A stretch of 40,587 bases of DNA from Agromyces humi (GTDB lineage: Bacteria; Actinomycetota; Actinomycetes; Actinomycetales; Microbacteriaceae). The stretch spans positions 1 through 40,587 of the forward strand of contig NZ_WJSP02000007.1 of assembly GCF_009720255.1 (NCBI RefSeq). The letters are read 5' to 3'. Under the pieces are notes generated by a model that was given only the letters and a program-made list of their open reading frames with translations, had not been told where the DNA came from and searched no databases. Position numbers and translations under genes: made by a program. This document shows positions 19,662-22,039 of this stretch, piece after piece (position 1 is the stretch's first letter; each line of letters opens with the position of its first letter).

Positions 19662-20672
19662 TCAGTCAGCAGCCTCGGATCCCGACCCCACGCGGCGCTC
19701 CAAGGCCTCGATGACGGTCTCGGCGATATCGATGTCGTAGAGCCTCTCGACACTCTGGAACCCGCCGGGACTCTCCGCGTTGATCTCGACCACCTGGCTG
19801 CCGATCACGTCGATGCCCACGAGGAACATCCCATCGGCGACGAGCTTGTCGCCGATCGCCTCGACGATGCTCAGCTCCGCCTCACCGATCTCGAGGGGCA
19901 CCGACCGACCTCCGGTGCTGATGTTCGCCCGCGGGTCGTTGCCGGTGGGCACGCGTCGGAAGGCGGCCGGCCTGCCGTCCCGCTCGAGGATGCGGCCCTC
20001 CAGCAGGAAGATTCGGGCATCGCCGTCCTTGGCTCCCTCGATGAACTCCTGGATGATGGCGTAGCCGTCCTGCAGCACCGCCTCCGTCATCTGCGCCAGG
20101 TTGGTCTCTCCCGGGCCCTCGATCATGAAGACGTTGCGGCCCTTGGCCCCGTACAGCGGTTTGACGACGCAGTGGCCGACCTCCTCGACGAACCGCTCGA
20201 TGGCCTCCGGATCTCGTGTCACCAGCGACCGCGGGCGAACCTGCTCGGGGAACTCCTCCAAGTAGAGCTTGCTGGTCGCTCGATGGAGGGTGTGCGGGTC
20301 GTTCACCACCGTCACACCGCGGTCCGCGAGCATCTTTCCGAACACCACGCCCATCGGGCTGGCCCACGGGCGCTCCTGCAGGTCGTCGATCGACTCGTTG
20401 CGCAGGACGAGCGCATCGAGGTCATCCATGACGATCCGTTCGGCGTCGCGCGCCTTGATCCCCTCCATGAAGCTCGCGAGGGTGTCGTCGCTCTTCCACC
20501 TGGCGGCGCGAGCGGTGGCTGCGAACCGCCCGTCGCTGCTGCCGTGCTCGAGGTCACCGACGCCGACATACCAGGTCTCGTGCCCGCTCCTGGCTGCGGC
20601 CCTGGCGAGTCGCGTGGTCGCGTACTCGTCCACCTCGGTGTCGACGTCGTTGACGAGAAATGCGAGTTTCAT
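19662..20672 (-). CDS. Glutathione-synthetase-like ATP-grasp ligase
   Basis: 336 residues from ATG 20672. The ATP-grasp pattern is close to GshB: KLAFLVNDVDTEVDEYATTRL at the start, VVKPLYGAKGRNVF (169-182, ATP-binding lysine and glycine loop), DARIFLLEGRIL, FRRVPTGNDPRANISTGG (238-255), and VGIDVIGSQVVEINAESPGGF (286-305) with the metal-binding Glu and Asn. It should join a carboxylate to an amine via an acyl phosphate. Actinobacteria generally make mycothiol instead of glutathione, so classical GshB activity is unlikely and the substrate is open. Its ATG overlaps the stop of the DUF1704 gene (ATGA), so the two are translationally coupled. Confidence 0.88.
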   Translation of the reverse strand: MKLAFLVNDVDTEVDEYATTRLARAAARSGHETWYVGVGDLEHGSSDGRFAATARAARWKSDDTLASFMEGIKARDAERIVMDDLDALVLRNESIDDLQERPWASPMGVVFGKMLADRGVTVVNDPHTLHRATSKLYLEEFPEQVRPRSLVTRDPEAIERFVEEVGHCVVKPLYGAKGRNVFMIEGPGETNLAQMTEAVLQDGYAIIQEFIEGAKDGDARIFLLEGRILERDGRPAAFRRVPTGNDPRANISTGGRSVPLEIGEAELSIVEAIGDKLVADGMFLVGIDVIGSQVVEINAESPGGFQSVERLYDIDIAETVIEALERRVGSGSEAAD

Positions 20673-21850
20673 GCTGCCACGTCTCCCTCGTAGAGGTCGG
20701 TGACCGTCGCGCCCGCGCGCAGCCTCTCCAGACGCTCTTGCGCACCGGGCACGTCCAGCCAGCGAGGCCGAACCCACGGCGGGTGGAGCACCTCGCGGTC
20801 GAGCAGGTCCTGCACCAGGGGGATGTGGTCCAACGCGAGCTTGCCGATCAGCAGGACGTCGAGGCGGCTGCCCTCGGCGAGGGCGTCGAGGATGCGCGTG
20901 ATCCCGCGCAGGTAGATCGCGTCCTTCACCCAACCGCCCCCGACGACGACCCGGATGGCGATGGACCACGCGGTCCGTGCCGGTATCCGGTGGTCGGCCC
21001 GCAGCGACTCGAAGATATCCAGGAAACCGGCGCCGTCGAGCATCTTGCCGACCGCGACCACTCGCGCGGCGAGCACGCGCAGCCGTCGCGGGTCCAACCC
21101 GCCGGTCAGGTACTCGGCGAGCACAGCGAGGCCCTCCTGGGTCTCGTCGTAGCCGGGCAGGCCGATGGTCAGCAGGGTCAGTGGCTGCCGCGCGCCGTTC
21201 TGGTAGGTGACCACGTGGGTGCCGACCTCGTGGTGCAGCAACGGCTCGACCCGGTCGGCCCGGAAGGCGGCGGACTCCGGGATGAGCAGGCGGCCGAACG
21301 ACACCATCAACTCGGAGATGTCATCCCGTACCTCGACGCGGACCGGGAAGTCGGGGTATACGGCGCGGTAGCGCTCGAACTCCGCACGGGCCGCGTCGGC
21401 GAACGCCCCGGCCGTGACGGTCTGGGTGCTGGGCGCCTGCGGCGGGATGGTCTCGAGCAGTTCCTCCGCCGCCGAGCCCAGCGGAGCGGCCACGGTTCCG
21501 TAGAGCTGGAGTGACCCGTACAGGAACCGTGACGTGTCGCGGTCCTCCAACGCGGTGATCTGCCGGGCGATCTCGTCCCTCTTCGCCCGGAAGAGCGTGT
21601 GCAGCGCCGGGTCGTCCACGTTCTCGACCTCGAGGTCGTACAGGTCGCGACGCGCGAGGTCGGGGTCGAAGTCCAACGGCCGCAGCCTCAGCGTGGGGGC
21701 AGTGCCGAAGTCACTGCGTTCGAAGTCCGCCCACGCCTCCGCCGCGTTGAGTGGCGTGACGTTGACGAGCAGGTTCACTCGGCGCTCGATCTCGGTGAGC
21801 CGGGCGTCGATGTCGAGTGCGGGCGCCAACTGCTCGGTCGGTGACGACAT
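20669..21850 (-). CDS. DUF1704 / QEGLA-motif putative metallopeptidase (MATCAP-like)
   Basis: 393 residues from ATG 21850. The zinc-site HEVGTH (207-212, form HExxxH) in LLHHEVGTHVVTY is followed by DETQEGLAVLAEYL (235-248), whose Glu is the expected third ligand. Flanking blocks are FLYGSLQLYG, ISELMVSFGRLLIPESAAFR and VVVGGGWVKDAIYLRG. Databases call this family flavohemoglobin expression-modulating QEGLA protein. DUF1704 is homologous to the mammalian MATCAP carboxypeptidase, which removes C-terminal tyrosine from tubulin. A bacterial substrate is not known. The gene is middle in a three-gene operon, coupled to an ATP-grasp ligase and preceded with no spacer by a one-TM protein. Confidence 0.87.
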   Translation of the reverse strand: MSSPTEQLAPALDIDARLTEIERRVNLLVNVTPLNAAEAWADFERSDFGTAPTLRLRPLDFDPDLARRDLYDLEVENVDDPALHTLFRAKRDEIARQITALEDRDTSRFLYGSLQLYGTVAAPLGSAAEELLETIPPQAPSTQTVTAGAFADAARAEFERYRAVYPDFPVRVEVRDDISELMVSFGRLLIPESAAFRADRVEPLLHHEVGTHVVTYQNGARQPLTLLTIGLPGYDETQEGLAVLAEYLTGGLDPRRLRVLAARVVAVGKMLDGAGFLDIFESLRADHRIPARTAWSIAIRVVVGGGWVKDAIYLRGITRILDALAEGSRLDVLLIGKLALDHIPLVQDLLDREVLHPPWVRPRWLDVPGAQERLERLRAGATVTDLYEGDVAA

Positions 21851-22039
21851 CTAGCCGCTCTCAGTCGCGTGCGCGGTCGATTCTCGACTGCTGATACTCG
21901 GATTCTCCGGCAGAGGAGTCATCGCGGTCGCCACCGCGAGCACGAGTATCACGGCGGCCATGAACGCGAGAATCAGGCCGCCGGCCTCTCGATCGGTGAG
22001 GACGTTCGGCGCGTGCGGGCCCTCCGTTGGCTTGGTCAT
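21851..22039 (-). CDS. Small single-pass membrane protein, first gene of the DUF1704/ATP-grasp operon
   Basis: 62 residues from ATG 22039, with GGAGAC about eight bases upstream. Layout: a polar N-terminus (KPTEGPHAPNVLTDREAG), one strong membrane helix (GLILAFMAAVILVLAVATAM, about 20-40) and a short Ser/Thr/Glu-rich tail ending ATESG. Its stop is directly against the ATG of the DUF1704 gene, so it is surely in the same operon. No family is recognised. It could be a membrane anchor or a substrate whose terminus is modified by the ligase and trimmed by the metallopeptidase; that is speculation from position. Confidence 0.7.
   Translation of the reverse strand: MTKPTEGPHAPNVLTDREAGGLILAFMAAVILVLAVATAMTPLPENPSISSRESTAHATESG

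Follow-up and report, generated by a model that had tools for sequence, protein, structure and literature searches.

A conserved metallopeptidase and ATP-grasp ligase gene pair in Agromyces humi, a possible make-and-break module for one kind of peptide bond

The stretch of DNA analyzed here, all 40,587 nucleotides of which are referred to as the window, comes from the actinobacterium Agromyces humi (contig NZ_WJSP02000007.1, positions 1 to 40,587) and carries on its minus strand three consecutive genes, the last two of which encode a MATCAP/DUF1704 metallopeptidase and an ATP-grasp ligase. The leading gene (21851..22039), with an ATG start, GGAG upstream and a TAG stop, encodes a 62-residue protein with one transmembrane (TM) segment, and this open reading frame (ORF) abuts directly, with no gap, the ATG of the gene for the 393-residue, TIGR02421-like peptidase (20669..21850; PF08014), a short form of the family without an N-terminal extension. 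The latter in turn overlaps, via ATGA (20672/20669), the gene for the 336-residue ligase of the GshB/RimK type (19662..20672; PF02955, PF08443). An earlier note on this DNA had described three unspaced genes with HEVGTH and QEGLA motifs in one product, ATP-grasp motifs in another and ATGA coupling, and all of this holds. The three genes are real and the conserved unit is the last two, the peptidase-ligase pair, which is conserved and co-inherited with both active sites intact. By eye, the N-termini of the two enzymes lack a hydrophobic signal sequence, and they presumably work in the cytoplasm.

The co-inheritance of the two genes is most readily seen within the genus. Among 37 Agromyces genomes, the window included, PF08014 is found in 11 and the ligase gene directly follows in 11 of 11, while the ligase, at 87–100% identity, is present in exactly these 11; the other 26 give weak background ATP-grasp matches of 19–36 bits (22 genomes) or none (4). 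A query of genome contigs with the peptidase only returned 30 loci in named genomes, from Agromyces, Cellulomonas, Kribbella, Nocardioides, Terrabacter, Intrasporangium, Actinoplanes, several metagenome-assembled genomes (MAGs) and an Acidobacteria MAG, and the ligase adjoins in 30/30, a count that is biased toward the paired clade since such a scan finds close relatives only, and in which 5 of the 30 loci carry peptidases identical to ones in the 37-genome set. Relatives of the window pair at 94–96% identity are mostly from Agromyces. The most frequent other neighboring gene of at least 60 residues occurs at 5 of the 30 loci, setting aside alternative-frame ORFs that overlap the pair, as judged by position, and a conserved further neighbor was accordingly rejected. 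In the peptidase tree, the pair of Cellulomonas sp. Leaf395 (L013:8001-10174) falls within Agromyces, with 96% identity to that of the window, which suggests a recent transfer.

Dropping 7 duplicates left 42 distinct pairs, selected for possession of both genes, such that adjacency among the 42 is by construction while that in the counts above is not. The two genes lie on the same strand in all 42 and share a 4-nucleotide overlap in 34 (32 ATGA, 2 GTGA), and the coupling therefore exceeds chance. Pairwise protein distances of peptidase and ligase over the 42 pairs are correlated with r = 0.98, a value reached in 0 of 2000 permutations. On plasmids, peptidase and ligase are neighbors in 35 of the 35 records in which a match to each was available, a count drawn from 40 plus 20 of 30 peptidase matches, 39 of 60 ligase matches (177 records matched) and one further ligase place; 19 of the 54 plasmid peptidase records have no ligase match among those used, and of these a Photobacterium record is paired and one from Pseudoalteromonas (L054) is unpaired. 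A table of specific genes of Vibrio vulnificus lists COG3930 VV2_1203 followed by the glutathione synthetase VV2_1204 (PMC3091676). The association is thus kept through changed gene order, gene fusion and three phyla, and the coupling of ligase to peptidase that the earlier note had drawn from one locus is borne out by the adjacency counts, the correlated divergence and the intact active sites. Neither a DUF1704-ATP-grasp association nor an operon of an N-formylglutamate amidohydrolase with an ATP-grasp enzyme was found in the literature searched. We do not claim the association as unpublished, as a 2009 survey of ATP-grasp gene neighborhoods reportedly may cover it.

The peptidase matches PF08014 (MATCAP) at 317.7 bits (E 1.3e-94; gathering cut-off 27 bits), and the TIGR02421 profile covers nearly all of it at 313 bits, which is under the curated cut-off of 338.65. 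The name of the latter family, 'flavohemoglobin expression-modulating QEGLA motif protein', is provisional, and no mechanism for TIGR02421 QEGLA proteins was found in the literature searched. HEVGTH occupies residues 207–212 and QEGLA residues 238–242, and H207, E208, H212 and E239, which supply the HExxxH motif and the third metal-ligand Glu in an EG motif, are conserved without exception in the 50 aligned relatives, both paired and unpaired. In agreement with the homology to MATCAP that the earlier note had named for DUF1704, the closest solved fold to the predicted structure (pLDDT, the model's own confidence score, 93.9) is human MATCAP (7z5g; E 9.3e-8, TM scores 0.59/0.69, 20% identity), and the next PDB match, a Pyrococcus carboxypeptidase, is not significant (E 0.35). 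The peptidase and human MATCAP also give a profile match, with E 1.1e-19. Human MATCAP/TMCP1, a tubulin tyrosine carboxypeptidase, has the same HExxxH plus Glu in a (Q/E)EG motif and, by the model, the same fold; unlike it, the paired bacterial enzyme adjoins an ATP-grasp ligase and its substrate is presumably not tubulin. MATCAP/TMCP enzymes are described as stripping C-terminal residues from tubulin tails and removing polyglutamylation (PMC10499314). The literature searched gave nothing on the function of bacterial MATCAP relatives.

In the peptidase tree, eight unpaired peptidases fall across one branch from the paired ones, a split of modest support (86/48) in a tree where long branches were flagged. 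The highest PF08014 score observed, 449.8 bits, belongs to an unpaired MATCAP protein in an UNVERIFIED record that bears the name 'Pseudomonas phage Y1' (L056:3440-4645). A phage origin of the peptidase was considered and rejected, as this record, itself of the unpaired type, is the one match in 50,697 phage records.

The ligase matches GSH-S_ATP (PF02955) at 151.5 bits (2.1e-44) and RimK (PF08443) at 57.1 bits. Thirteen residues, R91, N124, K135, K171, Q208, D218, R220, R240, R248, N250, D288, E296 and N298, are common to the ligase, Escherichia coli GshB and RimK and are present in 42 of 42 paired ligases; we take them to be the nucleotide and metal site residues of ATP-grasp ligases. In an alignment with E. 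coli GshB and RimK, E13, T19 and R146 are invariant among the paired ligases and differ from GshB, and G303-G304 replace the T-C of GshB, where the second glycine (G304, the end of an SPGG motif) is common with RimK. Because the core residues are intact and the paired ligases have invariant residues of their own, the ligase should be active, and its substrate pocket probably differs from a plain GshB pocket. The structure model (pLDDT 87.9) has GshB as its best PDB match, then RimK with its S6 substrate and PsnB, with ArgX and LysW lower in the list. The family scores place the enzyme outside the curated groups: it lies under the glutathione synthase cut-offs (TIGR01380, 190.5 against 299.05; NF003573, 197 against 272), under that of the RimK family TIGR00768 (82.5 bits against 143.4) and below that of LysX. 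Its best family is NF009110/PRK12458, 'glutathione synthetase', a full-length match of 336.9 bits that does not reach the cut-off of 408, and this label carries no evidence for glutathione as the product. Four of five relatives tested (Mesorhizobium, Photobacterium, one Acidobacteria genome and one actinobacterial genome) do exceed that cut-off, with 413–470, the Kribbella ligase does not (337.8 bits), and the Photobacterium ligase also passes the NF003573 cut-off (277.2 against 272). Hence the ligase resembles RimK, the ribosomal protein S6-glutamate ligase, and LysX/ArgX in its fold matches, and RimK further in its ATP-grasp core and G304, but it scores below the cut-offs of RimK and LysX, and small genes beside the pair recur at 3 of the 42 loci at most. 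ATP-grasp enzymes of this group form amide bonds (PMC4431377).

Some relatives of the pair include a third, amidohydrolase partner that lay beyond the earlier note's account. Annotated rhizobial plasmids have the order N-formylglutamate amidohydrolase, a 617–628-residue QEGLA protein and 'glutathione synthetase' (in Sinorhizobium meliloti ml21 the third gene, which the annotation table does not list, was found by sequence). This cluster has a homologous peptidase (~41%) and ligase (~42%) in the same order as in the window, and differs from it by the additional amidohydrolase gene and by a 240-residue N-terminal extension on its peptidase. Photobacterium sp. GJ3 has the ligase gene ahead of a gene in which amidohydrolase and MATCAP are fused into one 655-residue protein (L055:5137-7101), and Vibrio sp. 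HDW18 (L080) also has an amidohydrolase-peptidase fusion, with no ligase in the stretch examined. Among the plasmid records matching the fused amidohydrolase-peptidase query, 109 of 127 cover at least 80% of it, and the three-gene form is present in two Acidobacteria genomes and one actinobacterial genome as well. H154 and E241 are invariant in seven aligned amidohydrolases, and each of the six sequences long enough to include the first His has it. The extension of approximately 240 residues on the long peptidases (L052:5284-6000, L051:5257-6000, L053:5281-6000, L058:643-1500, L059:2593-3309 and L071:5731-6447) matched no Pfam model in the three scanned (L052, L058, L071). In a comparison resting on six and seven sequences, its profile matches that of the amidohydrolase with a probability of 95% (E 1.8e-8, 171 columns, 12% identity), against 0.7%, no match, for the ligase profile, and the extension looks like a decayed amidohydrolase-like copy. 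Pairs of the two-gene form make up a supported clade of actinobacteria (99/98), which is consistent with a single loss of amidohydrolase and extension. The amidohydrolase family PF05013 is found in none of the 11 pair-bearing Agromyces genomes, with a weak match in 2 of the other 26, and the Agromyces version appears to have lost this enzyme.

The conserved unit does not extend in the other direction to the 62-residue membrane protein, which the earlier note had proposed as a part of the system and perhaps its target. This protein has a single hydrophobic stretch (residues 22–40) and no family match above cut-off in Pfam or NCBIfam, and its gene is an intact neighbor of the pair in the window only, being beside 0 of 10 other Agromyces pairs and at 0 of the 30 peptidase-query loci. 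Weak relatives of the protein were found in 9 of the 59 other Agromyces genomes; in the 7 of these that were checked they lie away from the pair, judging by the surrounding sequence or by position. As a system component it was therefore rejected, and it looks like a bystander; of the three-gene co-occurrence on which the earlier note had staked its proposal, the duo stands and the trio does not. As seen by eye, the Agromyces relative L004 has, just before its peptidase gene (upstream of 2637, minus strand), a leader that can be aligned and a shortened version of the 62-residue ORF. A small peptide, carrier or ribosomally synthesized and post-translationally modified peptide (RiPP) precursor beside the pair was likewise sought and rejected: of 603 ORFs (18–130 residues, within 900 bases, 42 loci) the best recurs in three loci, all of Agromyces. 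On the same count, a gene for a LysW-type carrier was not found next to the pair, a result with a scope that leaves room for a carrier encoded elsewhere.

We regard a working partnership of peptidase and ligase as very probable. What the partners do is less certain, and we propose, with a probability of about 0.5, that they form a co-inherited two-enzyme module for making and breaking a bond on the same molecule. The ATP-grasp enzyme would use ATP to activate a carboxylate of a peptide-like acceptor and would attach an amino acid there; a C-terminal residue of the same, or an immediately related, molecule would be taken off by the MATCAP-type carboxypeptidase. Between them, the two would form and cleave a single kind of peptide bond. 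Where the third enzyme is present, this N-formylglutamate-amidohydrolase-like protein would hydrolyze another amide in that molecule. As to the nature of the molecule, a QEGLA gene of Photobacterium damselae appears in a list from a salinity comparison with a change of 27.5-fold, apparently an increase at 1% NaCl, the direction being taken from another row of the same list (PMC10308900). This response and the amidohydrolase-like partner lean toward a small N-acyl peptide, whereas kinship with MATCAP leans toward the tail of a protein. In the latter case the pair might be a bacterial writer and eraser of amino-acid tags at the C-terminus of a cellular protein, parallel to the tubulin code of eukaryotes, where the eraser side is also related to the bacterial pair: the ATP-grasp enzyme would write, the MATCAP-type enzyme would erase, and the amidohydrolase-like enzyme would be a second eraser in the three-enzyme form. 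We consider this more specific version rather doubtful.

Several observations weigh against make-and-break chemistry. The 37 Agromyces genomes are related, and the co-occurrence in them does not amount to 37 independent events. An even draw of 246 actinobacterial genomes, the window included, has PF08014 in 8 of the 245 others, with 3 paired and 5 unpaired (2 of the 3 paired recur among the 30 loci), and 99 Acidobacteria genomes have it in 3, with 2 paired (one being the genome of locus L042) and 1 unpaired. These even draws (3/8 and 2/3) are a fairer measure than 30/30, where 'unpaired' means no ligase match in a stretch of 8–12.7 kb, which in L068 and L069 has the peptidase near one of its ends. 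A Vibrio plasmid encodes a fused amidohydrolase-peptidase with no ligase within ~4 kb, and the stretch examined around a Pseudoalteromonas MATCAP protein has no ligase either. From the unpaired actinobacterial, Acidobacteria and Vibrio cases, the peptidase can evidently work without the ligase. In addition, making one bond and hydrolyzing it again would be a futile cycle in the absence of regulation, the likeness of the modeled peptidase fold to MATCAP is real but distant, and neither substrate nor activity was found for any bacterial MATCAP member in the literature searched.

The two enzymes might instead serve a linear pathway that leads to or from a small soluble peptide. The ligase would then make a peptide bond, and the peptidase, joined by the amidohydrolase where there is one, would have another task, later in the pathway or in salvage, such as release from a carrier or the degradation of an N-acyl peptide solute. 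The fold relatives of the ligase include, if lower in the list, ArgX/LysX, which go with the carrier LysW, an N-formylglutamate-amidohydrolase-like enzyme in the cassette suits an N-acyl amino acid or peptide, and the apparent salinity change in P. damselae is as expected of an osmolyte-clearing enzyme (PMC10308900). However, the 42 loci gave no widely recurrent ORF for a carrier or precursor, no other gene accompanies the pair at more than 5 of 30 loci, and none of the 11 Agromyces genomes with the pair has a member of the amidohydrolase family, and we think such a pathway possible but on the unlikely side. A membership of the pair in glutathione metabolism, with an ordinary glutathione synthetase and the peptidase as its accessory, is suggested by the name of the best-matching family, by E. 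coli GshB as the best solved relative, by a review of lactic acid bacteria that counts PRK12458 as GshB (PMC3462692) and by the Photobacterium ligase that exceeds the NF003573 cut-off. It can also no longer be set aside, as the earlier note had done, on the ground that actinobacteria use mycothiol. This argument is invalid in Agromyces: MshC is over its cut-off in 0 of the 11 pair-bearing genomes, which may lack mycothiol synthesis and which have two GCS2-family matches each. What counts against glutathione is that the window ligase falls under all three glutathione-related cut-offs, that its family-invariant E13, T19, R146 and G303-G304 differ from GshB, and that the pair is missing from 26 of 37 Agromyces genomes and present in genomes with MshC. 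In a second set of ten genomes, nine carry the pair (G004 does not) and seven have MshC over cut-off, all seven with the pair; the three without MshC are two Agromyces, one of which (G309) is apparently the same as G031 of the first set, and one MAG. Given that MshC is missing from all 11 genomes of the first set and found in 7 of the 10 of the second, the presence of the pair is not tied to the thiol, and we judge a simple role in glutathione metabolism to be improbable. The genome of Cellulomonas sp. Leaf395, unlike the Agromyces tested, has MshC over cut-off.

The two genes could also be a mobile cassette, transferred jointly with no shared chemistry. Their spread is indeed patchy (PF08014 occurs in 11 of the 37 Agromyces genomes and, among the 245 other actinobacterial genomes, in 8, three of them paired), the Cellulomonas copy nests inside Agromyces and the surroundings vary, yet the association survives a change of order, fusion and the distance between three phyla, and the lock-step divergence and 4-nucleotide overlap favor a joint function, which makes the cassette quite improbable as a full account. 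Least credible of all is the trio, with the 62-residue membrane protein as a shared target having a modified C-terminus. Its gene abuts the pair with a plausible ribosome site in this genome, and L004 retains a truncated ORF at the same place, as judged by eye, but it is at 1 of 11 Agromyces pairs and at none of the 30 loci, with its relatives located elsewhere where checked. The two K+R residues before and one after the TM stretch further hint, as a weak argument, at a C-terminus outside the cell and away from ATP.

The make-and-break reading matters for both enzymes. MATCAP was recognized only recently as a tubulin-trimming enzyme, and the pair corrects the database labels 'glutathione synthetase' and 'flavohemoglobin expression-modulating protein' that the two genes carry. 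The substrate of the ligase should reveal that of the peptidase, as in the 37 Agromyces genomes the ligase never occurs without it. If the writer-eraser version were true, animal MATCAP would derive from a bacterial tag remover that was already opposed to an ATP-grasp ligase.

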